DNA of 64,000 bases, from positions 62,001 to 126,000 of the forward strand of contig NZ_JABFAU010000001.1 in NCBI RefSeq assembly GCF_017168335.1, written 5' to 3'. Of the stretch, positions 1,192 to 62,471 are shown in pieces. This DNA is from Rhodococcus sp. KRD162 (GTDB lineage: Bacteria; Actinomycetota; Actinomycetes; Mycobacteriales; Mycobacteriaceae). The position numbers were made by a program, and so were the translations under genes. Below the pieces are notes generated by a model. The model was not told where the DNA came from. It saw nothing but the letters and a program-made list of their open reading frames with translations, and ran no database searches. Every line of letters starts with the position of its first letter. Position 1 is the stretch's first letter.

Positions 1192-1408
1192 TACGGGTGG
1201 GTGGGGAGCGGCGCAGGCACCGCTGGTCGATGACTGCATTGCAGGGTTTCTCGACGTCATCGCGCTCAACCGTGTCAACGAGAACCTTGCCCGCGCGGCG
1301 ACTGTGCTCGCGTACTGCGATGTGCTCGAGATGCGCCTCGAGGCGGCCGAAGCCGCCGGCGGCGATCCGGGCGAGACCGTCCGCGGTGCCCTGTGCGATC
1401 TGGCGTGA
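1184..1408 (+). CDS. DUF222/HNH protein, N-terminal fragment
   Basis: Seventy-four residues (MFDTGGWGAAQAPLVDDC onward) that look like the beginning of a DUF222-type (13E12 repeat family) HNH endonuclease: a helical segment rich in Ala, Glu and Arg with the pattern LARAATVLAYCDVLEMRLEAAEAA. The frame ends at TGA 1406-1408, and the rest of the DUF222 domain continues in the next frame from a GTG that overlaps this stop (GTGA). Either the gene has suffered a one-base frameshift or the two halves are made separately by translational coupling. The start is placed at ATG 1184 because the family starts here and the SOS-like box overlaps it. Confidence 0.65.
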   Translation: MFDTGGWGAAQAPLVDDCIAGFLDVIALNRVNENLARAATVLAYCDVLEMRLEAAEAAGGDPGETVRGALCDLA

Positions 1409-3219
1409 CGATGACCAAAACGCGTCACGATGCGTCCGTGGTGCACGATGTCGCGGAGCGTCTGCATCGAATGCCGTTGACTGCCTTGCGTTTCGTGACC
1501 GGCAGCTTCGACTGGTCGACGGTGGTCACCATCACCTCGGTCTTGCATCGTGCCAGTGACGAGACGATCGCGAACCTCGAATTCGAGGTGTGTGCATCGG
1601 GTGGTCGAATGCGTCCGCAGGCGCTGCGCAATCGGATCTGGCGGCTGTGGACGAAGGCCGATCCGATCGGTGCCGCAGCGGCCCATGAGACCGCGAAGTC
1701 CGAGGAGCTCGGAGTGAGAGTCGACCGCACCGGTCCGGGCGGGATTGCGTCGCTCATCGCGAAGATCACCGATCTCGAAGCTGCGGAAGCCGACGCACTC
1801 ATCGTCGAGATCGTCGGGACGGTCTGCACGGGCGACCCACGGTCGACGGGTGCGTTGCGGGCCGCGGGTCTGATGGCGTTACTGCACGGCGAGCATTCGC
1901 TGGCGTGTCAGTGCGATCGCGGCGACGACTGCCCGGTGGCGGGCGCTGTCGACGATATTCCTCCTCGGTGCGGGCATCTCCTCCAGATCGTGGTGGCGGT
2001 GGAGACGCTACTGGGACTGTCCTCGGAGCCCGCGACCCTTGCCGACGGGACGCCCATCGACCCCGAAGTGGCGCGCATCGTCGCCACTGACGCGAAGTGG
2101 CAGGCGCTGCTGACCGAGCTGGTCGAGATGGTCAAGCCCGAACGAAAAGACACGGGCGACGACGGATTTGGCAATGGTGGCCCAGACGACGGTGGTCCGG
2201 ACGGCGACGGTGGTCCAGACGGCGGTGGTCCAGACGGCGGTGGTCCGGATTGTGGTGGTCCAGACGACGTCGGCGGTCCTCGTCACGGCGGCACCACGGG
2301 CAACCCGGACAGCCCAGCCCCGGCGCGCCCCGGAGGTCCTTCCTTCTCCGACGTCGACCATGCCGGCTCACTCGGCGGCGAAGGGTCGAGTGTGCAGTCG
2401 AATTCGTTCGGATCGTTCTCTGCGGCGGTGCCGTCGGTGTTGCGTCGGGTGGTCGGCATGGGTCGGGTGCGAGGTCCCGCCCAGCTTCCGTCCGTGCGTC
2501 TTGTGGGTGCCCACTGTCTCCCACCTGCGGTCCCGCTACCGGGGGAGGAGTCTGTCCGCGATGGGCTCGTCGCACGGTGGCTTGCATGGATCGCCGAACG
2601 GCCCGAGCGTGCTCGCGGTATCTTTCCCGACGGTCACGGCGGTGAGTTCGCTCCGTCGAAGTCGGCGATCACGTATCGGCCCGGTGCCCGCGTCGCCGCG
2701 TTCGTTCGTGCTGCGTATCGCACGTGTACGTTCCCCAACTGCGACGTGCCGGCGGCCCGGTGTCAGATCGATCATCTGGTTCCCTTCGATCACGACGATC
2801 CGGGGCGCGGCGGCTGGACGATCGTGACCAATCTTCAGCCGGTGTGCGTGTTCCATCATCAGGCCAAGACCTCGGGGGCGTGGTCGGCGGTGATGCTCGC
2901 CGACGGCGCGATTCTGTGGTCGAACTCCCTCGGTCTGCGCACAGTCACGTTGCCGGAGTTGTCCATCGCGGCTCCCCGCCTATCGCGCCGACGGCGAAAG
3001 GCCTCGTCCAGGCCGGGAGCGAGGCCGGTCGAACCCACCCGCTGGGAGCTCGACTACAGCGGGTGTATACCTCCGACGCTCGACGACTGTCGCTCTGCAG
3101 CAACAGATATCGATCGAAGAAGGTTGGCGGAGAGACGGCGTGCCTACCTCGAACACTGTCGCGTCGTCCACGCGCGCGTTCGATACGACCGCACCCGATA
3201 CGACCCTCCGCCGTTCTGA
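1405..3219 (+). CDS. DUF222 domain HNH endonuclease (main part)
   Basis: About 604 residues. The first 240 are DUF222 (for example LPLTALRFVTGSFDWSTVV-like text and a Cys-rich CQCDRGDDCPVAG). A Gly/Pro/Asp repeat linker follows (bases 2161-2280), then a variable segment, and a C-terminal HNH nuclease at bases 2721-2880 with CTFPNCDVPAARC, the catalytic QIDHLVPFD, NLQPVCVFHH and a trailing Lys. Zinc-binding Cys pairs and the DH of HNH are present, so the nuclease module looks intact. Family members are multicopy in mycolata and some are SOS-induced; their biological role is not settled. Start: GTG 1405 overlapping the upstream stop, or ATG 1411. Together with the upstream frame this is one split gene. 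Confidence 0.8.
   Translation: MTMTKTRHDASVVHDVAERLHRMPLTALRFVTGSFDWSTVVTITSVLHRASDETIANLEFEVCASGGRMRPQALRNRIWRLWTKADPIGAAAAHETAKSEELGVRVDRTGPGGIASLIAKITDLEAAEADALIVEIVGTVCTGDPRSTGALRAAGLMALLHGEHSLACQCDRGDDCPVAGAVDDIPPRCGHLLQIVVAVETLLGLSSEPATLADGTPIDPEVARIVATDAKWQALLTELVEMVKPERKDTGDDGFGNGGPDDGGPDGDGGPDGGGPDGGGPDCGGPDDVGGPRHGGTTGNPDSPAPARPGGPSFSDVDHAGSLGGEGSSVQSNSFGSFSAAVPSVLRRVVGMGRVRGPAQLPSVRLVGAHCLPPAVPLPGEESVRDGLVARWLAWIAERPERARGIFPDGHGGEFAPSKSAITYRPGARVAAFVRAAYRTCTFPNCDVPAARCQIDHLVPFDHDDPGRGGWTIVTNLQPVCVFHHQAKTSGAWSAVMLADGAILWSNSLGLRTVTLPELSIAAPRLSRRRRKASSRPGARPVEPTRWELDYSGCIPPTLDDCRSAATDIDRRRLAERRRAYLEHCRVVHARVRYDRTRYDPPPF
2161..2280 (+). repeat. In-frame GGPD low-complexity repeat
   Basis: Imperfect 12-15 bp units (ggtggtccagacggc and variants) encode alternating GGPDD, GGPDG and DGGPDGG stretches. 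They form a flexible acidic linker between the DUF222 domain and the HNH part. Such arrays vary in length by slippage. Confidence 0.8.
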
Positions 3220-3261: not shown

Positions 3262-3278
3262 CTTGAACGCCGTTCAAG
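3262..3278. promoter_or_regulatory. BioQ-like operator upstream of bioY
   Basis: The perfect inverted repeat CTTGAAC-GCC-GTTCAAG lies 43 bp before the bioY start. Its core TGAAC-N3-GTTCA resembles the 13-bp operator (TGAAC-N3-GTTAC) recalled for the TetR-type biotin repressor BioQ of Corynebacterium. The downstream gene is a biotin transporter, so biotin-responsive repression is the natural reading. The regulator itself is not in this window. Confidence 0.7.
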
Positions 3279-3321: not shown

Positions 3322-3924
3322 GTGTCCGATGTCGACAGCAATACTCGCCCGCCGAGCCGTAAGGTCAGCCGAATGAACGTCTCTGCCCGCGACATGGCAC
3401 AGATCGCAGTGTTCGCGGCGCTCATCGCCGCCCTCGGTCTGCCGGGATCGATCACGGTCGGATTCTCGGGCGTCCCCATCACCCTCCAGACCCTCGGCAT
3501 CATCCTGTGCGGCGCGATCCTCGGTGCCCGTAAAGGCACGGCCGCGGTCCTGGTGTTCCTCGCGCTGACCATGATCGGCCTGCCCCTGCTGGCAGGCGGA
3601 CGTACCGGGTTGTCGGCGATGGCCGGGCCCACCGTCGGCTACCTGATCGGCTGGATTCCTGCCGCATTCCTGATCGGCCTACTCACCGCACGCATCCTGC
3701 CCAAGTACTCGATTCCGCTCGGTCTGCTGATCAACGCGGTCGGCGGCATCCTCGTCATCTACGTGTTCGGCATCATCGGACTGTTCCTACGCACCGATGT
3801 CGGGTTCTGGGCCGCCATCACCTCCAACGGCCCGTTCCTGCCCGGTGACGTTGCCAAAGTCGTCGTCGCCACCGTCGTGGCCAAGAGCGTGCATCGTGCG
3901 TACCCCGGTCTGATCACGAAGTGA
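3322..3924 (+). CDS. bioY: BioY, substrate-binding membrane component of biotin ECF transporter
   Basis: A 200-residue integral membrane protein that captures biotin for import. It shows the BioY signature SGVPITLQTLGIILCGAILG around residues 50-68, the ARKG motif that follows it, and about six hydrophobic helices (ALTMIGLPLLAGG, GPTVGYLIGWI, LLINAVGGILVIYVFG). A soluble stretch of about 20 residues precedes the first helix. GTG 3322 is supported by AGGAG at 3311-3315. Its stop overlaps the GTG of the following ligase gene, and the transporter partners BioM and BioN lie 2.3 kb further on in the same operon, so uptake and the interposed enzymes should be made together. Confidence 0.95.
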   Translation: MSDVDSNTRPPSRKVSRMNVSARDMAQIAVFAALIAALGLPGSITVGFSGVPITLQTLGIILCGAILGARKGTAAVLVFLALTMIGLPLLAGGRTGLSAMAGPTVGYLIGWIPAAFLIGLLTARILPKYSIPLGLLINAVGGILVIYVFGIIGLFLRTDVGFWAAITSNGPFLPGDVAKVVVATVVAKSVHRAYPGLITK

Positions 3925-5057
3925 CCGTCGAGCTGGGAGGGAGAGGGAGTGACACCGCCATCGTCTGGGCGGGTCGCACCCTCACCTACGCCGAACTCGA
4001 CGCAGCCGTCGAGCAGTGGCCTCACCTCCCGGTGCACGGCGCTCGATCCCACAGCGTTCGATCCCACGACGCATCAGCGCTCGATCTGCCCGATGTGTTG
4101 ATCTGCGTTTTCGCAGCAGCGCGGCAGGGGAGCGCGGTGCGAGTCGAGGACCCGGCCACCCGTCCCGAACGCCCTGCGCACCCCGATCCTGACGCGTTCC
4201 TGCTGGTGGCGACCTCCGGTTCCACCGGCCGCCCGAAACCGCTCGCTCGCACGGCCGAGTCGTGGGCCGACAGTTTCCCCGAGTTCACCGACATCACCGG
4301 GATCCGCCCCACCGACACCGTGTTGATCACCGGGCCGCTGCACGCCACGATGCATCTGTTCGCCGCGGTGCACGCACTGTGGCTGGGGGCCTGCGTCACC
4401 GATGACCCGGCCGAGGCCACCGCAGTGCACGCTGTGCCTGCAGTGCTCCGCGAGGTGGTCGGCCGAATGCCGCGCGCTCGGCTCGCGGTGTCGGCAGGAG
4501 CCGGCCTCGGCTCAGCTGCGGAGCAGGCGATCTCGACACGCGGAATCCGACTCGTCGAGTACTACGGCTCGGCAGAACTGTCGTTGGTGGCCACGCGCGT
4601 GGTGGGCGAACATTCTGCGCTGCGTCTGCTTCGGGAGGTCGAAGCACGCACCGAGGACGGCTACCTGTTCGTTCGATCGCCGTACGCCGCGCTCGATGCG
4701 CGCGGCTGGTTCGGCGTCGGTGATCTGGCCGAACTGAACGGCACCGAACTCCTCGTCCACGGACGCGGGGATGCAGCGATCAACGTGGGCGGAACCACCG
4801 TGATCGCCGAGGACGTGGAGAACATCTTGACCGCGCTCGACGGTGTCCGGGCTGCGGCCGCGATCGGTACACCACATGCGGTACTCGGCGAAACGGTCTG
4901 CGCTGTGATCGAACTCGACGGAACCCGCGAGCTCGACCTCGTTCGCGCCGAGGCTCGCGCAGTCATGGCCAAGGAAGCGTTGCCGCGACGGTGGACGGTG
5001 GTGCAGCAGTTGCCCCGCACCGCGAGCGGCAAGATCGCACGAGGGGCCCTGCAGTGA
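3921..5057 (+). CDS. Short AMP-dependent acid-CoA ligase-like enzyme in biotin operon
   Basis: A 378-residue adenylate-forming enzyme (ANL superfamily) with the full core set: P-loop VATSGSTGRPKPL near residue 96, YYGSAE (A5) near 217, GDLAEL (A7), RGDAAINVGG (A8) and C-terminal PRTASGKIAR carrying the adenylation Lys. Compared with usual acyl-CoA synthetases (500 residues or more) the N-terminal subdomain is very short, like small MenE-type ligases. The carboxylic acid substrate is unknown; position between bioY and bioMN suggests biotin, a biotin vitamer or a pimelate-like acid. Start GTG 3921 overlaps the bioY stop and its own stop overlaps the thiolase start, so translation is coupled on both sides. 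Confidence 0.8.
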   Translation: MTVELGGRGSDTAIVWAGRTLTYAELDAAVEQWPHLPVHGARSHSVRSHDASALDLPDVLICVFAAARQGSAVRVEDPATRPERPAHPDPDAFLLVATSGSTGRPKPLARTAESWADSFPEFTDITGIRPTDTVLITGPLHATMHLFAAVHALWLGACVTDDPAEATAVHAVPAVLREVVGRMPRARLAVSAGAGLGSAAEQAISTRGIRLVEYYGSAELSLVATRVVGEHSALRLLREVEARTEDGYLFVRSPYAALDARGWFGVGDLAELNGTELLVHGRGDAAINVGGTTVIAEDVENILTALDGVRAAAAIGTPHAVLGETVCAVIELDGTRELDLVRAEARAVMAKEALPRRWTVVQQLPRTASGKIARGALQ

Positions 5058-6172
5058 CTGTGCCGGTCATCGTTGCGGCGAAACGCACGGCAATCGGCAT
5101 CGCCGGGCATGGCTTCGCCGAGGTCACTGCCCCGAACCTCGCCGGACCGGTGTTGAAAGCGGTTGCAGAACAAGTAAGTTCGATCGACAGCCCGATCGAC
5201 GACGTGATCCTCGGCAACTGCCTCGGTCCCGGCGGCGACCTCGCGCGGGTCTCGTCGCTGCTCGCGGGTCTCGGAGTCGGCGTTCCCGGAGTCACCGTCG
5301 ATCGGCAGTGCGGATCGGGGCTCGACGCCGTCGTGCAGGCCGCGTCGCGTATCCGCGCCGGCGACGAGACGCTGATTCTGGCCGGCGGCGTCGAATCGGC
5401 AAGCACCAGCCCGTGGCGATTCTGGCCACCGGTGGACGGCGCAGACCCGGTCCGCTACACGCGAGCGCCGTTCGCTCCACACGGCTTCGAAGACCCGGAC
5501 ATGGGTGTGGCCGCGGACGACCTCGCGCGAATCCGCGGTATCGGGCGCGAACGCCAAGATGCCTACGCGGCGCGGTCGTTCGCGCGCGCGGCGGCCTGCG
5601 ACTTCTCGGCCGAGATCGTCACGGTGAACGATGTCGCACGCGATGAGCGCATCCGCCCCAACATGACCGTCCAGCGGCTCGGCAGGCTCCGCCCCACGTT
5701 CACCCCCGACGGCACGGTGACGGCGGGTAACTCGTGCGGAATATCGGATGGCGCAGCGGTTCTGGCCCTCACCACGGCCGAGCGGGCAGCTGGGATGTCT
5801 GCGTTGCGTGTTCTCGGCAGTGCGGTCGCAGGGTCCGATCCGGCTCTTCCCGGCCTCGGCCCGGTACCGGCGATCGAGAAGCTGCTCGCCCGGACCGGGG
5901 TGCGTCCCGCAGACATCGACACGATAGAGATCACCGAGGCATTCGCATCGGTGGTACTCGCGGTCTCGGACGAGTTGGGTCTCGACGAAGAGCGGATCTG
6001 CCCGGAGGGTGGAGCCATCGCGATGGGTCATCCGTGGGGTGCATCGGGTGCGATTCTGCTGGTGCGGTTGGCGTCACGAATGCTGCAATCGAACGGTCCG
6101 GCACTGGGATTGGCAGCCTGCGCCATCGGCGGCGGGCAAGGTATAGCGATGTTGGTGGAGCGAGTGGCATGA
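5054..6172 (+). CDS. Thiolase-family enzyme in biotin operon
   Basis: A 372-residue thiolase (acetyl-CoA acyltransferase family), which cleaves or forms beta-ketoacyl-CoA. Active-site elements: nucleophile Cys86 in VDRQCGSGLDAV, a TEAFAS block (Asn of the usual NEAFA replaced by Thr), GGAIAMGHPWGASGA with the catalytic His, and the second Cys in CAIGGGQGIAML. The protein is slightly short for the family (about 390). GTG 5054 overlaps the stop of the upstream ligase; an upstream open stretch to 4991 lies inside the ligase gene and is not used. A ligase plus thiolase would allow chain shortening or condensation of an acid brought in by, or related to, the biotin transporter. This last point is inference. 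Confidence 0.85.
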   Translation: MTVPVIVAAKRTAIGIAGHGFAEVTAPNLAGPVLKAVAEQVSSIDSPIDDVILGNCLGPGGDLARVSSLLAGLGVGVPGVTVDRQCGSGLDAVVQAASRIRAGDETLILAGGVESASTSPWRFWPPVDGADPVRYTRAPFAPHGFEDPDMGVAADDLARIRGIGRERQDAYAARSFARAAACDFSAEIVTVNDVARDERIRPNMTVQRLGRLRPTFTPDGTVTAGNSCGISDGAAVLALTTAERAAGMSALRVLGSAVAGSDPALPGLGPVPAIEKLLARTGVRPADIDTIEITEAFASVVLAVSDELGLDEERICPEGGAIAMGHPWGASGAILLVRLASRMLQSNGPALGLAACAIGGGQGIAMLVERVA

Positions 6173-6182
6173 GCAGGATTCG

Positions 6183-6863
6183 ATGAGCACGGTCAGGTTC
6201 GAGAACATTTCCCACTCGTTCGGAGAGCGGCAGGTTCTGCGCGGCATCGATCTCGCATTCGACGAGCGCCGCATCGGCATCATCGGATCGAACGGGTCCG
6301 GCAAGTCCACCCTCGCGCGAATGATCAACGGGCTGATCAAGCCCGATACCGGCCGTGTCACCGTCGACGGCGTCGATGCAGCCAAGAAGGGGGCGCAGGT
6401 CCGCAAGAAGGTCGGGTTCGTGTTCACGGACCCCGATTCGCAAATCGTGATGCCCACTGTCTCCGAGGATCTCGCGTTCTCGCTCCGCAGGTCCGGTTTG
6501 AGCAAGGCCGAGGTGGCCGAGCGGGTGGAGGAGATTCTCGTCCGCTTCCGTCTCGATCAGCACCGCGACCACCCGGCGCACCTGCTCTCGGGTGGACAGA
6601 AGCAGCTGTTGGCGATCGGTGCCGTGCTCATCAGGCGGCCGGAGGTGGTCGTGGCCGACGAGCCGACCACGCTGCTGGATCTGCGCAACGGACGCGTCGT
6701 CGCGCAGGCGTTGGATTCGATGGACCAGCAAGTCATCGTCGTGACCCACCAACTGGCATTACTGGACAGTTTCGAGCGAGTCATCGTCATCGACGACGGC
6801 CGGGTCGCCTTCGACGGTGCCCCGGACGCTGCAGTCCCGGCGTATCGGGAGTCGATCGGATGA
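6183..6863 (+). CDS. bioM: BioM, ATPase of biotin ECF transporter
   Basis: A 226-residue ABC ATPase of the EcfA/CbiO type that powers biotin uptake. Walker A is GSNGSGKST at residues 35-43, the Q-loop region is FVFTDPDSQI (the DPDxQ form is typical of ECF ATPases), the signature is LLSGGQKQ, Walker B is VVVADEPTT, and the switch His lies in VVTHQ. Only one ATPase gene is present, so a homodimer is expected as in BioMNY systems. It begins 10 bp after the thiolase stop and its stop overlaps the ATG of bioN (ATGA). Confidence 0.93.
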   Translation: MSTVRFENISHSFGERQVLRGIDLAFDERRIGIIGSNGSGKSTLARMINGLIKPDTGRVTVDGVDAAKKGAQVRKKVGFVFTDPDSQIVMPTVSEDLAFSLRRSGLSKAEVAERVEEILVRFRLDQHRDHPAHLLSGGQKQLLAIGAVLIRRPEVVVADEPTTLLDLRNGRVVAQALDSMDQQVIVVTHQLALLDSFERVIVIDDGRVAFDGAPDAAVPAYRESIG

Positions 6864-7507
6864 TCGGTCTCTACCGTCCTGGCACCTCGTTGCTGCACCG
6901 GATGAGTCCGGGGTCGAAGCTGCTGGCGTTGATCCTCGCGATTCTGGCGACGGTGATCTTTGCCCGCACACCGCTCGAGGTGGGTATGGTGGCCGTTCTC
7001 GTCGCCGCTCTGTTCGCGGTAGCCCGAATCCCGGTGAAAGTCGCACTGGCACAGCTGCGTCCGGTGTTGTGGATGCTGTTGATCATCGGCGTGTTCCAGG
7101 TCCTGTTCACCACCTGGCAACGCGCTCTCGTGGTGTGCGGGGTGCTGGTGATCTCCGTGGCCCTGGCGGCCCTGGTCACGTTGACCACCCGAGTGACCGA
7201 CATGCTCGACACCGTCACCCGATCGCTCGGTCCGGTCCGACGCTTCGGCGTCGACCCCGATCGCATCGGTCTGCTTCTCGCCCTGGCCATCCGCTGCATC
7301 CCGCTGCTCGCGTCCATCGTGCAGGAGGTATCGCAGGCCCGCAAAGCACGCGGACTGCAGTGGTCGATGACGGCCCTGGCCACTCCGGTCCTGGTGCGCG
7401 CGCTGCGCACCGCCGATGCAATGGGTGATGCCCTCGTGGCCCGCGGTGTGGACGACGACGGTGTGGACAACGACGGTGTAGACGACAACGGTGCCGAACG
7501 TGAGTGA
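6860..7507 (+). CDS. bioN: BioN, coupling membrane protein (EcfT) of biotin transporter
   Basis: A 215-residue membrane protein with four to five hydrophobic segments and the two EcfT coupling motifs that touch the ATPase: ARKARGL near residue 157 and DALVARGVD near residue 193 (Ala-Arg-Gly in each). It starts with the family-typical YRPGTSLLHRMSPGSKLLAL. The last 18 residues are an odd acidic repeat, DDDGVDNDGVDDNG, made by a tandem DNA repeat at 7453-7493 and probably not functional. ATG 6860 overlaps the bioM stop. The following ligase gene begins inside its 3' end. Confidence 0.92.
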   Translation: MIGLYRPGTSLLHRMSPGSKLLALILAILATVIFARTPLEVGMVAVLVAALFAVARIPVKVALAQLRPVLWMLLIIGVFQVLFTTWQRALVVCGVLVISVALAALVTLTTRVTDMLDTVTRSLGPVRRFGVDPDRIGLLLALAIRCIPLLASIVQEVSQARKARGLQWSMTALATPVLVRALRTADAMGDALVARGVDDDGVDNDGVDDNGAERE

Positions 7508-8948
7508 GTTGCTCACTGCCCGCGTGGCACGTCATGCCGGGAGTCACAATGCTGCGCTTGTCGACGCGACGGGCGAGATCACCTACCGCCGATTCTGGGA
7601 TCGAGTCGAGCGCACAGCTGGTGCCCTGGTGGGGATGCGGCGCATCGCAGTGTTGCCGACGTCCGATATCGGGTCGCTGGTCGTCGTGCTGGCGGCGATG
7701 CATGCAGGCGTGAGTGTCGTTCTGTTGCATCGGCATCTCGTGCCCAGCGAATTCGCCGAGGCGATGACGGTGTGCGAGCCGTCGCTGATCGCAGCGCACC
7801 CGCGCTCGCATGCACGGCTGCGCACCTGGGGCGCGCAGAACGTTCGGGCTCCGGCCGATCTCGCTACCGGTATTTCCGGCACCGTCGGTGGTCCTTCGCC
7901 GAGTTCGGAGCTTCTGGTGGGCATCACATCCGGAACCACCGGGCCACCCAAGTTGTTCGTGCGCAATCATGCGTCGTGGGCGGCGACGCTCGATCGCTCC
8001 GATGCCCTGTTCGATCTCGGTCCAGGCGATCGGGTGTCCGCACCCGGCACACTCGATCACACGCACTTCCTCTACGGCGCTGTGCATGGACTCACTCGTG
8101 GTGCGACGGTAGACCTGCGGGAGCCGGCAGCGGCTCTCGCCGACGCTGCGAGCCATCTGTATTCGGTACCCACCATTGCCTGGAACATCGCTCGTTCGGG
8201 ACGGCGATCGGCGAGTGTCCGTGAGGTGCTCTCGTCTGCGGCGCGGTGGGCGGAGTCGGGTCGAGAGGCACTGGCGACGGCCCTACCGAACGCAACAATG
8301 ACGCACTTCTACGGCGCATCGGAGTTGAGTTTCGTCTCGTACGACCGTCGAACTGCCGTCGGCGCGGAGGTGGAAGGCGCGTTGTTCGACGGCGTCGAGG
8401 TCGAGAGCAGGGACGAGCTGCTCTACGTCCGCAGTGACATGCTGTTCGACGGCTATCTGGGTCGTTCGGGGCAGCAGGAGTCGGTGGCCGGAGGACCGGA
8501 CGACGACGGGTGGATGACGGTCGGCGATCGTGGCAGTGTCGAACAGGGGCGACTGATCCTGCACGGCCGTGGCAGCGAGACGATCGTCCGGGCCGGGCTC
8601 AACGTCGAGTTGGTGCCGATCGAAGCGGCGCTGCTCGCAATTCCCGGTGTGCTCGAGGCCGGGGTGGTCGGGCTGCCCCACGACCGAGCCGGTGAGGAGC
8701 CTGCGGCCGGAGTTGTTGTTGCGCAGACCGATCCGATATCGGTGGCGCAGATTCGCCGCCACCTACGCACCGTGCTACCGGGGCCGAGCATGCCGGTGGT
8801 GATCGCCGCCGTGGATTCCCTGCCCCGAACACCACGCGGCAAGCTAGACCGTCACGCCTTGGGCGCAACCTTGGCCACGGTGCGGACCGTCGGCTCTCCC
8901 GATGCTCCTGTGACGACGAACCAGACGGTCAACGCGCCGCCGTCGTAG
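7491..8948 (+). CDS. AMP-dependent acid-CoA ligase-like enzyme, end of biotin operon
   Basis: A 485-residue ANL-superfamily enzyme. Motifs: YRRFWDRVERTAGALVG (N-terminal A1 area), P-loop VGITSGTTGPPKLFV near residue 143, HFYGASELSFV (A5), VGDRGSVEQGRLILHGRG (A7/A8) and PRTPRGKLDR (A10 Lys). It is not closely similar to the short ligase at the head of the operon, so the two probably do not duplicate each other. The start is GTG 7491 or GTG 7500; both overlap bioN, so expression is coupled to the transporter. Substrate unknown. The last 97 bp overlap the 3' end of the thioesterase gene on the opposite strand. Confidence 0.82.
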   Translation: MPNVSELLTARVARHAGSHNAALVDATGEITYRRFWDRVERTAGALVGMRRIAVLPTSDIGSLVVVLAAMHAGVSVVLLHRHLVPSEFAEAMTVCEPSLIAAHPRSHARLRTWGAQNVRAPADLATGISGTVGGPSPSSELLVGITSGTTGPPKLFVRNHASWAATLDRSDALFDLGPGDRVSAPGTLDHTHFLYGAVHGLTRGATVDLREPAAALADAASHLYSVPTIAWNIARSGRRSASVREVLSSAARWAESGREALATALPNATMTHFYGASELSFVSYDRRTAVGAEVEGALFDGVEVESRDELLYVRSDMLFDGYLGRSGQQESVAGGPDDDGWMTVGDRGSVEQGRLILHGRGSETIVRAGLNVELVPIEAALLAIPGVLEAGVVGLPHDRAGEEPAAGVVVAQTDPISVAQIRRHLRTVLPGPSMPVVIAAVDSLPRTPRGKLDRHALGATLATVRTVGSPDAPVTTNQTVNAPPS

Positions 8949-9643
8949 CGGTGGCGCAGGGAGACACGTTCGTGGCCGAGCACCGGGGTCAGATATTCGA
9001 TGACGGCGCGGTGCGGCGCGGCGGCCAGCTCCGGCAAGTCCACCAGCAGCTCCTCGATCGCATGCCAGTAGGCAGCATTGTTGAGGTGGTTGAACGGATC
9101 GATATCGGTTGCGCGCAAAGGAAAGTGGAGATCGGTGGGCGACTCGGTCGGCACCGGCTCGGTCAGCCATGCCTTCCATCGCAGCCGGTGCTGGTCGGTG
9201 GTTCGGGCCAGCATTTCCAGTGCCCCGTCGCTGATGCGCGTCGGCATCCCCGTGTCCTTGCTGATGTTGATCCAGAAGCCCTCGGTCTCGATGCGTCCGC
9301 CCTTCGGCGTCGTCAGCGCCACTCGCATGTTCGACCATCGCGTCGACATCGACGAGCACCACCGGCGCAGGTGCACACGATCCGGGAAGTGGATGGGTTC
9401 GATGACGTCGATGACGGTGCGCCGGACGATCCACATCGGGTCGGTCTTGCCGAGGGGAGTGGCGTCGAGGTTGTCGGTGCCGACGTCCTGTAGATAGCGG
9501 GCCACGCCGTCGAATCGGAGCCGATTGTTCGGATCGATGTCGCCCGTACGCACCGGCCAGCTGGTCTCGAAGCCCTCACCCGGCGGTGGCTCGGGAGCGA
9601 GTTCGTCGTCGAAGCCACCCGGTTCCACACGCGCATTGGTCAC
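8852..9643 (-). CDS. Acyl-ACP thioesterase family protein
   Basis: A 263-residue double hot-dog protein of the acyl-ACP thioesterase family (PF01643, FatA/FatB-like). The first hot-dog holds the catalytic-type RTGDIDPNNRLRFDGVARYLQDVGTDNL-like region (residues 31-58), and the second repeats the pattern as RATDIDPFNHLNNAAYWHAIEELL with an Asp, Asn and His set. Such enzymes release fatty acids from acyl carrier protein or CoA. It is convergent with the biotin operon and overlaps its last gene by 97 bp. Whether it acts with that operon is open; free acids it made could be substrates for the ligases. Confidence 0.82.
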   Translation of the reverse strand: MTNARVEPGGFDDELAPEPPPGEGFETSWPVRTGDIDPNNRLRFDGVARYLQDVGTDNLDATPLGKTDPMWIVRRTVIDVIEPIHFPDRVHLRRWCSSMSTRWSNMRVALTTPKGGRIETEGFWINISKDTGMPTRISDGALEMLARTTDQHRLRWKAWLTEPVPTESPTDLHFPLRATDIDPFNHLNNAAYWHAIEELLVDLPELAAAPHRAVIEYLTPVLGHERVSLRHRYDGGALTVWFVVTGASGEPTVRTVAKVAPKA

Positions 9644-9694
9644 GTTCGCACTCTACTCGGGCGCCCAGTACTCGGGCGCGCGCGATGCGCTGTG

Positions 9695-11215
9695 TCAGAT
9701 GATGTGGCGGGCTCGCATTCCGTCGAATACCGGTGCCACCCGGACGACGTCGCCGGTGGTGGGTGCATGCACCATCTGGCCGTTGCCCATGTAGATCGCC
9801 ACGTGGCCCGGGCCCGCAGGTCCCCAGTTTCCGAAGAGGAGATCACCGGGTTGGGCGAGTTCCATCGGAACCTCGGTGCCGACGTTCCACTGCGTCTCCG
9901 ACGTGCGGGGCAGTGTCACTTTTCCGCCCGATGCCTTGAACAGGGCGTACGAGGTCAGTCCGGAGCAGTCGAATCCTCCGCCGGAGGGCCCGTTGATGTT
10001 TCCGCCTCCCCAGACATAGGGCAGTCCCAGGTAGTCCATCGCCAATTGCACTGCCCGGCCACCGATTCCGGTGAGATCGAGACCGGCGAACGGGGTCAGG
10101 ATCGCGGCGAACTGTGCCTCGGTCGCCCGGATGCGTGCCACATACGGCTTGGTCTGCGTCTCGTAATCGACTGTGCCCGATGGCATACCGCCGGAACGCA
10201 GCACCGCTCCCGCCCCCGCGTTGTACCCGGCGAGAGTCAGGTCGAGCGTATCGCCGGATACCTTGCCCTCACGCTTCCAACCTTCGACCTGCCCGTAGAT
10301 ATCGCACAGCAATGTGCCCGACGCCATCACCGCGTCACCGATGCTGTTGACGTCGACGACGCCGTTTCCGTCGTAGTCCTTGCCGTAGGTCGCCCAGGTG
10401 CTCGGCATGAATTGCCCTGGTCCTCGCGCGCCGGTACTCGAGACCGGCGCGGTAGGGCCGTACCTGAAACCGTTTTCGGCGGCGTAGAGGGCGGCAATCG
10501 TGGTGGCTTTGACACCCCCGCAGATGGTGCCTGCCTTCTGCAGCCACGGCACGAAGGCGGTGATGGCTCCCACCGGACTCAGGTTGATGCCGGTGAACGT
10601 CGCAGGCTGCCCGGGGAACAATGCGCGCCGAATGGCCTCGGCCGAGGCCATGAATGCGGTCTGGGTGGCGAGATCGACGGCGGAATACGTCCGCCCGGCG
10701 AACTGCACCGCACCTGTGCCGAGGGCGGCGGCAGCGGTGGACAGCGGATTCGGCGTCGCTGCATTCGGCGTCGCTGCATTCGAGGAGAACACACTGAACG
10801 GAAGCGGGGCGTTGGACTGGGCCGCCGGAGCAGTCGTCGCCGCAGTTGCGCCGCCAGGGGTTTCGGCTGCCGTGCCCGGGGCCGAGTCGGGTGCGGTCGC
10901 GTCGGCATCCGCAGTCTCGATCTCGGCGACCGTCGGAAGATCGGGGAGCATCGGTTCGACGGCGGTGTGCAGTCCCTCGGCGGCGTCGGTCAGTGTGCGG
11001 TCGGCAACCTCTGCGGCGGGCTCGGGCATGCTGCCCAGCAGTTCGTCCCACTGATCGGTCATGGTCTTCGCTTGGTCTTCGGCGGTGGCCGCGATATCAG
11101 CGGCCTGGTCCTTCACCGTCTGATTCTGTAACGGAGCCGGGGCGTCCGTTCCAGCGACGGCACCCGCGGCGGACACGATGACGGCAACGATGACTGCGAT
11201 GGGATCGCCTGCCAT
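9695..11215 (-). CDS. Secreted lytic transglycosylase / NlpC-P60 peptidoglycan hydrolase
   Basis: A 506-residue exported wall hydrolase. An N-terminal hydrophobic stretch (AVIVAVIVSAAGAVAG) works as signal or anchor. About 170 residues of Ala/Thr/Pro-rich, low-complexity linker follow, including NAATPNAATPN. An SLT-type transglycosylase domain at about 215-370 has the catalytic Glu in LYAAENGF and GARGPGQFMPSTW. The C-terminal NlpC/P60 domain (about 380-506) has Cys in GGGFDCSGLTSYAL, His in GPGHVAIYMG and a last polar His in MVHAP. The pairing of glycan and peptide cleavage suggests a role in daughter-cell separation, as for RipA-like proteins. I looked for a c-di-AMP riboswitch in the 120 bp upstream and did not find one. 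Confidence 0.9.
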   Translation of the reverse strand: MAGDPIAVIVAVIVSAAGAVAGTDAPAPLQNQTVKDQAADIAATAEDQAKTMTDQWDELLGSMPEPAAEVADRTLTDAAEGLHTAVEPMLPDLPTVAEIETADADATAPDSAPGTAAETPGGATAATTAPAAQSNAPLPFSVFSSNAATPNAATPNPLSTAAAALGTGAVQFAGRTYSAVDLATQTAFMASAEAIRRALFPGQPATFTGINLSPVGAITAFVPWLQKAGTICGGVKATTIAALYAAENGFRYGPTAPVSSTGARGPGQFMPSTWATYGKDYDGNGVVDVNSIGDAVMASGTLLCDIYGQVEGWKREGKVSGDTLDLTLAGYNAGAGAVLRSGGMPSGTVDYETQTKPYVARIRATEAQFAAILTPFAGLDLTGIGGRAVQLAMDYLGLPYVWGGGNINGPSGGGFDCSGLTSYALFKASGGKVTLPRTSETQWNVGTEVPMELAQPGDLLFGNWGPAGPGHVAIYMGNGQMVHAPTTGDVVRVAPVFDGMRARHII

Positions 11216-11335
11216 GTATCGACTCCTGCTACTCGAACGATCTCCCCCGAGCCAGCAGGTGTGATCAGGCTCACTCGGGTGCTGTACCCATCATGCACGG
11301 TGAGGCCGATCGACTCATGAGAACTGCGAAACTGT

Positions 11336-11902
11336 TCAGAACAGGGACGCCCAATAGTCCGAGAAGCGGATCCCGATGAGCGCGATGACGATTGCGTACC
11401 ACACAGCCAGCAGGGTCCACCGCCATTCGAGAAAGAGACGGCCGACGGTGCCGGGGTTCTCGCGCGTGATCAGTCGGCTCAGGGCCAAGACGAACAGCGG
11501 CATCGTCACCGTCCACACGACCATGCAGTAAGGGCACAGCGCATTGATCGTGTACAGGCTCTCGAAGATCAGCCAGTGGATGAACACCTCACCCAGCAAC
11601 AGGCCCGCGCTCATTCCCAGCCAGAACCAGTGGGGCAGTTCGATGCGGCCGAGCAGCAGAACGCCTGCCACGAGTGCGACCGAGAATGCGACGATGCCCA
11701 GGATGGGGTTGGGAAATCCGAACAGCGCCGCCTGCTTGGTCACCATCACCGAACCGCAGGAGAGCACGGGGTTCAGGCTGCAGGACGGCACGTACGACGC
11801 GTCCTCGAGCAACTTGATGCGCTCGATGGTCAGCGTCAGCGCGGCGAGCAGACCGAGAGCGCTGAAGGCAGTGAAAACTACCGCACCGGCGCGGGCCTTC
11901 AT
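11336..11902 (-). CDS. Vitamin K epoxide reductase (VKOR) family protein
   Basis: A 188-residue four- to five-helix membrane protein. It carries the redox pair CPYC near residue 122 (NALCPYCMVVW) and the loop Cys pair of PSCSLNPVLSCGS near residues 40-50, with a conserved Ser/Trp environment. In actinobacteria VKOR replaces DsbB: it reoxidises DsbA and passes electrons to menaquinone. The gene lies 2 bp downstream of a DsbA-like gene, so the two form a complete extracytoplasmic disulfide-forming unit. Confidence 0.92.
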   Translation of the reverse strand: MKARAGAVVFTAFSALGLLAALTLTIERIKLLEDASYVPSCSLNPVLSCGSVMVTKQAALFGFPNPILGIVAFSVALVAGVLLLGRIELPHWFWLGMSAGLLLGEVFIHWLIFESLYTINALCPYCMVVWTVTMPLFVLALSRLITRENPGTVGRLFLEWRWTLLAVWYAIVIALIGIRFSDYWASLF

Positions 11903-11904
11903 GG

Positions 11905-12675
11905 TCAGTTGCCGGCCGCGGCCGCTGCCGCCAGGATGTTCTCCGGCGTCGGGTTACTGATCTCGGTGCCGTTCACGCGCACGTTCGGCGTCCCGTTGAT
12001 GCCCTCGCTGATGACGGACTGCGTCTGGCTGGTGACCCAATCGGTGTAGCTGCCATCGGTGATGCACGACGCGGTTTCGGGGGAGTCGGCTCTTGCCGAT
12101 GCCGCGATGGCGACGAGCTCGTCATCGGGCAGGCCGGTGCCGTTCTCGGGCGGCTGCTTCTCGAACATCGTCGTGTGCCAGTTCATCCAGCTGTCTCGAT
12201 CGTTCTCGGCGACGCAGATCGAGGCATTTGCCGCCCGCGTCGAGTACATCGCGCCGTTGGAGAAGCGGTCGAGGATCGCAATGGGGCGGTAGTCCACGGC
12301 GACGTTGCCTGCGTCGGCCAGCTGCTGAAGTGTCGATCCGCTGGTGGACTCGAAGGCCTTGCACGCCGGGCACTGGAAGTCCTCGACGACGCTGATCACG
12401 GTGGTGGCATCGGGATTGCCGAAGCGGATGGCCCCGTTGTCGGTCAGGGAGGTGGGCGTCAGTTGTGGCCCCTGAGCGGAGCTCGTGGCGGTCGACGCGT
12501 CGCCCGACGTCGACCTGTTGTTGACGATGAACAGAGCAATTGCCGCTACCAGAGCAATCAGAACCACGGCGACGAGGATCTGAATCAGGGTGCGGCGGTT
12601 CTTGTCGCCGTTCTGCATGGCCCTGATGTCTTTGGATGCCCCGTTGCCTTTGGAGGCTTTTTTGCTCGTGTTCAC
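11905..12675 (-). CDS. Membrane-anchored DsbA-like thiol oxidoreductase
   Basis: A 256-residue protein with a basic N-terminus, one membrane helix (LIQILVAVVLIALVAAIALFIV, shortened here to its core VVLIALVAAIALF, about residues 37-49), then an extracytoplasmic thioredoxin fold of the Thioredoxin_4/DsbA type. The active site is FQCPACKAF near residue 109 and the cis-Pro loop is GTPNVRVNG. It introduces disulfides into exported proteins and would be recycled by the VKOR encoded directly downstream. It follows aroQ by 46 bp on the same strand. Confidence 0.92.
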   Translation of the reverse strand: MNTSKKASKGNGASKDIRAMQNGDKNRRTLIQILVAVVLIALVAAIALFIVNNRSTSGDASTATSSAQGPQLTPTSLTDNGAIRFGNPDATTVISVVEDFQCPACKAFESTSGSTLQQLADAGNVAVDYRPIAILDRFSNGAMYSTRAANASICVAENDRDSWMNWHTTMFEKQPPENGTGLPDDELVAIAASARADSPETASCITDGSYTDWVTSQTQSVISEGINGTPNVRVNGTEISNPTPENILAAAAAAGN

Positions 12676-12721
12676 GCGGCCAGTGTAGGCAGTCGATCCT
12701 GAGCACTTGATGAGAGCTGGG

Positions 12722-13171
12722 TCAACCGAGGAGAGTGGCGAGCCGTTCGATGGCGAATCGGTACCCGTCGATCCCGAGTCCGGCGATGACGCCGCTGGCG
12801 ATAGGGGAGACGAACGAGTGGTGCCGAAACTCCTCGCGGGCGTGCACGTTGCTGATATGGACCTCGATGATCGGCACTTCGGGGATGACGAGGGCGTCGC
12901 GCAGCGCCACGGAGGTATGGGTCAATCCGCCCGGGTTGATGACGATGCCCGACGCCACCCCGCGGGCCTGGTGGATCCAGTCGATGAGCTGGCCTTCGTG
13001 GTTGGACTGTTCGGCGGTGACGGTGAGGCCGTGGGCAGCAGCGGACTGCTCGCACAGCGCGACGATGTCGGCGAGGGTGGCGTGGCCGTACACCTGCGGC
13101 TGCCGAGTGCCGAGCATGTTCAGATTCGGACCGTTGAGTACCAGCACCTGCTTGGCCAAGACGTCACTCAC
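12722..13171 (-). CDS. aroQ: Type II 3-dehydroquinate dehydratase
   Basis: A 149-residue cytosolic enzyme of the shikimate pathway that converts 3-dehydroquinate to 3-dehydroshikimate. Family hallmarks are all visible: [19 protein letters not shown] with the catalytic Tyr loop, [30 protein letters not shown], the His of VEVHISN-like text ([19 protein letters not shown]) and the closing [11 protein letters not shown]. Length matches the 145-150 residue dodecameric type. Start GTG 13171. First gene of the aroQ-dsbA-VKOR run on the minus strand. Confidence 0.96.
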
Positions 13172-13249
13172 TTTCTTGCCGCGAACAAATCTGGAAAATG
13201 CGTACTACCGGGTCCGATCCTTGCACAGTGGTGTTGACACAATCGTCCC

Positions 13250-61187: not shown

Positions 61188-62471
61188 ATGACTGACGTCA
61201 ACAACCTGTCACTGGCCGAACTCGATCCCGAGGTCGCCGAGGCGATGGCCGGTGAGCTCGGACGTCAGCGCAACACCCTCGAGATGATCGCCTCGGAGAA
61301 CTTCGTTCCCCGCGCGGTTCTCCAGGCCCAGGGCAGCGTCCTGACCAACAAGTACGCCGAGGGCTATCCCGGACGCCGCTACTACGGCGGATGCGAGCAT
61401 GTCGACATCGTCGAGGACCTCGCGCGCAACCGTGCCAAGGAACTCTTCGGAGCCGAGTTCGCGAACGTGCAGCCGCACGCAGGAGCGCAGGCCAATGCGG
61501 CCGTGCTGATGGCGCTGATCAACCCGGGCGACAAGATCATGGGCCTGGACCTGGCGCACGGCGGCCATCTCACCCACGGCATGAAGCTCAACTTCTCGGG
61601 CAAGCTCTACGAGGTCGAGTCCTACGGCGTCAGCAAAGAAGACCACCGCATCGACATGGACGAGGTGCGCAAACAAGCCATCGCCGCCAAGCCGCAGGTG
61701 CTCATCGCAGGCTGGTCGGCCTACCCACGCCACCAGGACTTTGCTGCCTTCCGCTCCATCGCCGACGAGGTCGGCGCACTGCTGTGGGTCGACATGGCGC
61801 ACTTCGCCGGGCTCGTGGCCGCAGGCCTGCACCCCTCGCCGGTGCCCTACGCCGACGTGGTCTCCTCCACGGTGCACAAGACCCTCGGCGGACCCCGCTC
61901 CGGCATCATCCTGGCCAAGAAGGAATGGGCCAAGAAGCTCAACTCCGCAGTGTTCCCCGGCCAGCAGGGCGGACCGCTGATGCACGCCATCGCAGCCAAG
62001 GCCGTCGCCTTCAAGATCGCCGCGACGCCGGAGTTCAAGGAACGCCAGGAGCGCACCCTGCTCGGGGCCTCGCTGCTCGCCGAGCGTCTCACCGCATCCG
62101 ACGTCGCCGACAAGGGCGTGTCGGTCCTCACCGGCGGCACCGACGTGCACCTGGTGCTGGTCGACCTCCGCAACTCCGAGCTCGACGGTCAGCAGGCCGA
62201 GGACCTCCTCCACGAGGTCGGCATCACCGTCAACCGCAACGCAGTGCCCTTCGACCCGCGCCCGCCGATGGTCACCTCCGGCCTGCGCATCGGCACCGGA
62301 GCACTGGCCACCCGGGGATTCGGCGAAGCCGAGTTCACCGAGGTCGCAGACATCATCGCCACCGCCCTGGCAACCGGTGAGGCCAGCGATGCGCTCAAGG
62401 ATCGCGTGGTGAAGCTCGCGCAGAGCACGCCGCTGTACGAGGGCCTGGAAGACTGGGGATTGCTGGGCTGA
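61188..62471 (+). CDS. glyA: Serine hydroxymethyltransferase
   Basis: A 427-residue PLP enzyme interconverting serine and glycine with tetrahydrofolate as C1 carrier. [62 protein letters not shown] and the PLP Lys in [14 protein letters not shown] are intact, as is the closing [12 protein letters not shown]. Full length. Upstream ATG 61188 follows GGAGA. Equivalent to glyA1 (Rv1093). Two copies of the 51-bp palindromic element follow its stop, in place of a conventional terminator. Confidence 0.98.

Follow-up and report, generated by a model that had tools for sequence, protein, structure and literature searches.

The window, a stretch of 64,000 nucleotides from Rhodococcus sp. KRD162 (contig NZ_JABFAU010000001.1, forward-strand positions 62,001 to 126,000), carries at 3322-8948 on the plus strand an operon in which a biotin energy-coupling factor (ECF) transporter is encoded together with two acid ligases and a thiolase-like enzyme, in the order bioY, ligase A, thiolase, bioM, bioN, ligase B. 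The substrate-binding S component of the transporter is encoded by bioY (3322-3924, GTG start; Pfam BioY, 129.5 bits against a cut-off of 25), for which the BioY structure 4dve was the sole solved relative recovered by sequence search, the ECF ATPase by bioM (6183-6863; Pfam ABC_tran, with ECF_ATPase_1 as the top NCBIfam model, under its cut-off) and the transmembrane T component by bioN (6860-7507; Pfam CbiQ), and by these Pfam assignments the S, A and T components of a biotin ECF transporter are complete at the locus. The remaining genes, referred to below as the cassette, encode a short ANL (acyl-CoA synthetase type) ligase of 378 amino acids (ligase A, 3921-5057; Pfam AMP-binding and AMP-binding_C), a thiolase-like enzyme of 372 amino acids (5054-6172; Pfam Thiolase_N and Thiolase_C, and above the cut-off of NCBIfam TIGR01930) and a full-length ANL ligase of 485 amino acids (ligase B, 7491-8948; Pfam AMP-binding and its C domain). 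The Pfam domains of all six proteins exceed their curated cut-offs.

Four of the junctions are overlaps, of 4, 4, 4 and 17 bases, and the sole gap is the 10 bp immediately 5' of bioM. The longest frame of the thiolase gene begins at 4991; the start at 5054 was chosen on the basis of the GTGA overlap with the ligase A stop and the fit to relatives. A reading made previously from the sequence alone (the sequence-only reading) had described the gene order, the single strand and the lone gap before bioM, all of which agree with the recomputed coordinates; the overlaps are likewise present, although all six genes, not five, overlap a neighbor. The six-gene operon is confirmed as real.

Upstream of bioY, at 3263-3277 and 44 bases 5' of its GTG start, is the palindrome TTGAACGCCGTTCAA, an exact match to TGAACNNNGTTCA. 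Published excerpts give the consensus of the biotin regulator BioQ as TGAAC-N3-GTTCA (PMC3398298), and the box is accordingly of BioQ type and a predicted operator. Within the window alone such a match is not rare (one found at up to one mismatch, 1.20 expected); in the whole 5.9 Mb genome the 15-mer box occurs at up to one mismatch in only four places, three of them exact, and the reversed control pattern in none. One of the other three boxes lies just 5' of a bioF-like gene (contig C45) and two lie beside bioB (contig C56), between bioB and a divergent TetR-like gene, recognized by eye, that is a putative bioQ. The exact 13-mer lies close to the start of bioY in all 36 loci of the same genus and in three of 23 other cassette loci sampled from the order (L048, L101, L122). 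The box before the bioF-like gene (L006 ~7664-7678; G000:C45:235663-235677) overlaps both the end of a bioA-like frame and a possible upstream bioF ATG, so that the true bioF start may be further downstream. No Rfam family matched within the window at gathering scores.

Occurrence of the cassette in Rhodococcus and beyond

BioY was present in all 37 genomes of the genus set, and 36 loci, including that of KRD162, were examined, the locus of G018 being left out because it lies at a contig end. All six genes were matched in 28 of the 36 loci, among them L022 (G014) and L034 (G011), in which ligase B is seemingly interrupted and matches as two separate pieces. One locus had no match to ligase B, six lacked ligase A and retained the thiolase and ligase B, and one carried bioYMN alone. 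Each of the 35 loci with the thiolase encodes at least one ligase, either of which can occur alone, and the sole locus without the thiolase has neither; these counts indicate that the six-gene set represents more than chance.

An even draw of 150 genomes was used to extend the comparison to the order, where BioY was detected in 93. A profile (A1) built from 12 cassette thiolases, some of them from these same genomes, was used to score the 13 best candidates per genome and separated 31 thiolases of at least 496.9 bits, one per genome, from the remaining listed candidates, which reached at most 346.7 bits. All 31 genomes with such a cassette-type thiolase encode BioY, and none of the 57 genomes without BioY has one (Fisher p 4e-8, for genomes that are related to one another). 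When gene positions were compared by eye, 28 of the 31 thiolase genes lay within 3 kb of bioY, one lay ~8.5 kb away (G136) and two were elsewhere. The distance in G136 reflects an intervening cluster resembling inositol-breakdown genes (L241 ~6100-13200, by eye), which splits the cassette between ligase and thiolase. The tie between these enzymes and the biotin transporter proposed in the sequence-only reading is therefore upheld: the genes are mostly found with, rather than away from, bioYMN, and the operon is preceded by a box of biotin-regulator type.

In a plasmid collection, ligase and thiolase genes linked to bioY were found in Azospirillum, Sinorhizobium, Shinella, Microvirga, Salipiger and Paracoccus alcaliphilus, and in the actinomycetes Nonomuraea and Streptantibioticus; ten further BioY loci of this collection, chosen for another test, gave no ligase-thiolase match within ~4.5 kb on either side. 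Among the best 80 of 591 loci from a scan of named genomes, bioY stands beside the thiolase in three: Fictibacillus barbaricus (L160, Bacillota), in the order bioY-ligase-thiolase, Nocardia donostiensis, which has all six genes in the same order as in the window, and Microbispora siamensis. In the remaining 77 loci, some of them truncated at a contig end, the retrieved sequence gave no bioY match, and their thiolases were used as controls. The cassette thus recurs next to bioY in Actinomycetota, in Alphaproteobacteria and in one genome of Bacillota.

A 4HBT thioesterase and a medium-chain dehydrogenase/reductase (MDR) accompany the bioMNY-linked set in Shinella, Sinorhizobium and Streptantibioticus, and are also found with a ligase-thiolase pair of Rhizobium that has no bioY. 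The top match of the Sinorhizobium MDR protein was the putative quinone reductase 3gms (7e-34), followed by mitochondrial 2-enoyl thioester reductases (1e-22). A MaoC-like gene was recognized by eye downstream of the Fictibacillus cassette, and annotated nitroreductase-family genes, 62% identical to each other, are found next to the bioY-linked cassettes in Salipiger and Paracoccus alcaliphilus (L244 5091-5768; L246 7360-8034). The single MDR match in the order set falls in L059, a locus with bioYMN but no cassette.

Neighboring genes were surveyed in 62 cassette loci, 35 from the genus and 27 others, for clusters common to at least five of the non-genus loci. Apart from the cassette genes and antisense frames, the recurrent clusters represent the shared background of one genus or family. 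A group of the short-chain dehydrogenase/reductase (SDR) type, assigned by eye, occurs in five of the 27 non-genus loci and lies 3-5 kb from bioY, on differing strands, in the four that have bioY; it was not counted because SDR genes are common. An acyl-ACP-thioesterase-like gene (ACP, acyl carrier protein) at 8852-9643 on the minus strand of the window converges with ligase B over a 97-base overlap. It accompanies 29 of the 35 cassette loci in the genus and none of the 27 others, and was not counted as part of the operon. The operon is directly preceded, in the same orientation, by a gene for a DUF222 protein (1393-3219). In Sinorhizobium meliloti Ak57 pSymB (L149 4485-5971) the bioY-linked ligase is unannotated and extends over two frames, which points to either a disrupted gene or an error in the sequence. 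On plasmid pA of Rhodococcus pyridinivorans (L158, NZ_CP113799.1, 9051-26679), bioY stands at the end of a catabolic-looking cluster containing genes for a biotin carboxylase, a biotin/lipoyl protein, a carboxyltransferase and beta-oxidation enzymes, and perhaps feeds the carboxylase.

Two further candidates were set aside. Arg94 of BioY was considered as a mark of the cassette, being present in all 68 cassette-linked BioY proteins (58 of them in the order set and 10 in further collections), in nine of 28 other bioM-linked BioY proteins and in two of the 30 remaining ones, but it was also found in eight of the 10 readable non-cassette BioY proteins of a fresh set, of which one further member could not be aligned. 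A BirA-like box in the Fictibacillus locus (4866-4897, with bioY from 4914) has two mismatches, a level also reached by 12 of 200 shuffled versions of the locus, and is weak. Boxes for BioR were absent at zero to one mismatch near the operons of L147-L149 and L151, two one-mismatch matches lying kilobases downstream in L148, and at zero mismatches were absent from L244 and L246.

The thiolase-like enzyme and the two ligases

By sequence the thiolase-like enzyme matches the solved acetyl-CoA acetyltransferase 5f38 (CoA, coenzyme A; E 3e-70). Active-site positions were compared between 72 cassette-type thiolases and 85 others. The former comprise 58 picked among the order and genus genomes at 45% identity or more (35 of them from this genus), nine from the plasmid collection (two being Rhizobium proteins without bioY), three from the named genomes and two read by eye; the latter comprise the 77 controls and eight other thiolases of the KRD162 genome. 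Cys86 (codon 5309-5311, plus strand, as for the codons that follow), the acyl-enzyme nucleophile of the thiolase fold, and His326 (6029-6031), the histidine of the GHP motif, are both present in all 72 cassette-type enzymes and in all 85 others. The place of the catalytic cysteine of the CxG motif, which is Cys in 85 of the 85 others, is occupied by Ala357 (6122-6124) in the window and by Ala, Ser or Gly in all 72 cassette-type enzymes; this column was set by alignment with ordinary thiolases and is consistent with the alignment to 5f38. At the place of the NEAF asparagine, likewise located from 5f38, is Thr294 (5933-5935), Asn being found in 15 of the 72 and in 85 of 85 others. By family and by retention of the nucleophile and the GHP histidine, the enzyme resembles acetyl-CoA acetyltransferases and 3-ketoacyl-CoA thiolases such as 5f38, 4n44 and 1dlu, from which the cassette type differs in the replacement of the CxG cysteine throughout and of the NEAF asparagine in 57 of 72. 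In thiolases the CxG cysteine acts as the acid/base by which the acetyl-CoA carbanion is generated or protonated; its loss should abolish the reversible Claisen reaction and leave formation of the acyl-enzyme intact. Since this residue is missing in every cassette-type sequence and kept in every comparison sequence, ordinary thiolase chemistry appears unlikely.

Both ligases retain the core motifs of ANL enzymes and the C-terminal GK lysine, although the Pfam AMP-binding match of the short ligase A starts only at profile position 147 of 384. The BioW family, against which the sequence-only reading had suggested that the ligases be checked, does not describe them: both match AMP-binding, and the BioW domain of Pfam is absent from both. 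The top NCBIfam model for both was PRK07638 (ligase A, 121 bits; ligase B, 201 bits; cut-off 518), and for the thiolase the second model, after TIGR01930, was PRK06690 (325 bits; cut-off 498); we take these to be the models for YhfT and YhfS. When the KRD162 genome was searched with the two models, the cassette thiolase was the top hit of PRK06690 (324 against 239 bits), and ligase B ranked second for PRK07638 (200.5 against 210.8 bits); ligase A ranked much lower, with two partial matches of 62 and 53 bits.

Nine other ligases of the same genome separated from all cassette ligases in a tree (support 0.999), in which ligase A fell among other actinobacterial cassette ligases and ligase B with those of Fictibacillus and Microvirga (support 0.8, which is weak); in a smaller tree without the latter two, ligase B was closest to the outgroup (0.587). 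Outside its own kind, the nearest to ligase B among the ligases compared was the bioMNY-linked ligase of Azospirillum (36.9%). This placement suggests that the window operon, like that of Nocardia, holds two kinds of ligase that are found singly elsewhere in the set.

Relation to known systems and to biotin synthesis

In Bacillus and Staphylococcus, bioY together with the ligase gene yhfT and the thiolase gene yhfS has been described, in the parts of the sources available, as a biotin-controlled set (PMC11089781, PMC7235819, PMC6391492), and the three genes are there reported to be repressed by BirA (PMC11089781). In the window operon, bioY, an ANL ligase and a thiolase are adjacent in the order of that set. 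Compared by its published description in Bacillus subtilis and Staphylococcus aureus, the set, which is biotin-controlled there, has bioY, ligase and thiolase in common with the window, whereas in the window the enzymes lie inside a full bioYMN operon, the two ligases belong to different branches and the box is of BioQ rather than BirA type. The Fictibacillus thiolase lacks the CxG cysteine, as does the cassette thiolase here. Titles and the beginnings of abstracts, in a search that mostly did not reach subscription journals, yielded no function for the bioY-ligase-thiolase set or for yhfT and yhfS, and titles and abstract beginnings on bisnorbiotin in bacteria likewise contained no paper assigning the cassette a function. 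The suggestion that the operon represents an undescribed system thus needs amending, the bioY, yhfT and yhfS genes being in print as BirA-controlled, and holds to the extent that no function for them was found in those sources. The BioYMN system of Corynebacterium glutamicum has the same S, A and T components and is biotin-regulated; it differs in that "thiolase" occurs 0 times in the accessible text, where the "ligase" passages concern biotin protein ligase (PMC3398298).

A condensing enzyme that serves biotin is also known in BioZ, which belongs to the wider thiolase superfamily. In the sources as available it is an enzyme of the ketoacyl-ACP synthase (KAS) III type acting in alphaproteobacterial biotin synthesis (PMC7645780, PMC8024396); it yields a pimeloyl precursor, whereas the cassette occurs in genomes without BioB. 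BioB scored above cut-off in 98 of the 150 order genomes, including only 12 of the 31 with a cassette-type thiolase as against 30 of the 62 other BioY genomes (p 0.51). Among the 19 thiolase genomes without BioB above cut-off, five of which are listed as single contigs, 15 also lack a strong BioF match and four have one (read by eye); the BioF model cut-off was met by none of the 150 genomes, so that only strong and weak matches can be separated. Within the genus, four of 37 genomes lack BioB, and three of these retain the thiolase and ligase B. Because 19 of 31 thiolase genomes have no BioB above cut-off, supply of pimeloyl-CoA is unlikely to be the general role of the cassette, contrary to one option of the sequence-only reading. 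A product dependent on BioF and BioB would be useless in such genomes, and the product is therefore likely to be biotin itself, made from a precursor in which both rings are already present, although some replacement enzyme for BioB may be present in them.

Possible roles of the cassette enzymes

Starting from the observed gene content and layout, the box, the linkage to bioY across phyla, the occurrence without BioB and the loss of the CxG cysteine, we propose that the operon encodes a biotin-salvage module that activates a vitamer with an intact ring system (for example bisnorbiotin), lengthens its side chain in a KAS-like manner and releases biotin. This proposal is tentative, with a probability of roughly 0.4. 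When biotin is scarce, BioQ would release the operator and BioYMN would import biotin together with related vitamers carrying the intact double ring. A shortened vitamer such as bisnorbiotin would then be adenylated on its side-chain carboxylate and joined to CoA by ligase A or ligase B, and Cys86 of the thiolase-like enzyme would accept the acyl group; lacking the CxG base, the enzyme would not carry out the reversible reaction with acetyl-CoA and would instead add two carbons by a decarboxylative, KAS-like step, for which the small Ala, Ser or Gly at the former cysteine could make room for the malonyl carboxylate. Reduction by shared enzymes, or by the linked MDR reductase in some Rhizobiaceae and in Streptantibioticus, would give biotinyl-CoA, from which a thioesterase would release biotin for BirA. 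Activation, condensation, reduction and release would together amount to a two-carbon extension. The vitamer repair among the options of the sequence-only reading is retained here in modified form; the shortening by beta-oxidation that accompanied it is discussed below.

Several observations weigh against this proposal. Cassette-type thiolases are missing from 62 of the 93 BioY genomes of the order, two of the 31 (G064, G181) lie away from bioY, with a ligase adjoining or ~2 kb off, and the Rhizobium ligase-thiolase pair occurs with a thioesterase and no bioY nearby. The reductase, thioesterase, MaoC-like and nitroreductase partners were not found near the cassettes of the order set, and no ketoreductase or dehydratase is consistently linked to cassettes. 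The MDR reductase itself is matched best by quinone-reductase entries, and the curated family that fits it best, although below cut-off, is a subfamily of quinone oxidoreductases. Of the 58 order-set thiolases, 47, including that of the window, carry a cysteine one residue ahead of the canonical CxG place that might act as a substitute base, and loss of the CxG cysteine would be equally compatible with a role in acyl transfer. Salvage does not account for the presence of two ligases in one operon, and bisnorbiotin is a presumed example of its substrate.

Acyl transfer without carbon-carbon chemistry, in which a ligase-made vitamer-CoA (or biotinyl-CoA) would be passed via Cys86 to another acceptor or to water, so that vitamers are trapped, unloaded or un-masked, would be in keeping with the pattern of residues described above, in which nucleophile and GHP histidine persist while the CxG base and mostly the NEAF asparagine are lost, and with the absence of consistently linked beta-oxidation or reduction genes from actinobacterial cassettes. 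As no acceptor gene is linked, and the reductase and thioesterase partners of some lineages suggest further chemistry, we consider it unlikely. It is also conceivable, though likewise unlikely, that the enzymes never meet biotin and serve to spare it: at low biotin, acetyl-CoA carboxylase would fail and a fatty-acid ligase and a thiolase-type enzyme would be co-induced for the use of outside fatty acids. General profiles do call the ligases fatty-acid-type acyl-CoA synthetases, the cassette is present both with and without BioB, and the set is co-controlled with bioY in Bacillus and Staphylococcus, as far as the available portions of the reports show (PMC6391492, PMC7235819, PMC11089781). Biotin sparing is harder to reconcile with the gene-by-gene interleaving of the enzymes with bioY and bioMN in several phyla, with the separation of the cassette ligases from the nine others of the genome, and with a thiolase for which, in the absence of the CxG base, condensation of acetyl-CoA should be difficult.

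The two remaining explanations are both very improbable. Shortening of longer-chain vitamers by a beta-oxidation-type route, an option of the sequence-only reading, would employ ligase and thiolase as the classical pair they resemble, with an acyl-CoA as the substrate used; however, the CxG catalytic cysteine is gone from all 72 cassette-type enzymes, and no acyl-CoA or hydroxyacyl-CoA dehydrogenase was recognized by eye among the recurrent neighbors. A BioW- or BioZ-like role, in which pimeloyl-CoA or a dicarboxylate precursor would be supplied for ring assembly, gains from the fact that BioW was matched in neither the KRD162 genome nor any of the 150 order genomes at E 1e-10, from the lack of a BioC match over cut-off in the KRD162 genome, which says little, and from the BioQ-type boxes of its BioF-like and BioB genes. 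It is opposed by the thiolase genomes without BioB, most of which also lack a strong BioF, by the absence of any BioB enrichment with the cassette, and by the linkage of the cassette to the transporter rather than to bioF or bioB.

The bioY-yhfT-yhfS set was known previously; the recurrence of the cassette, its occurrence without BioB, the loss of the CxG cysteine and the MDR reductase and thioesterase partners are new here. The genes yhfT and yhfS are biotin-controlled members of well-studied Gram-positive regulons for which no proven function was found, and because the data argue against pimelate supply as the general role and the thiolase partner is not an ordinary one, the question of their function is open to direct test. 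It is a rather doubtful but wider prospect that salvage represents an unrecognized, widespread pathway of biotin repair, in which organisms that do not make biotin would also import vitamers resembling bisnorbiotin and restore the length of the side chain by means of a CoA ligase and a decarboxylating, KAS-like enzyme of the thiolase fold, which would also explain yhfT-yhfS of Bacillus and Staphylococcus. If this were true, organisms regarded as strict biotin auxotrophs would be able to use a broader range of compounds than supposed, which would be relevant to vitamin exchange in soils and microbiomes.

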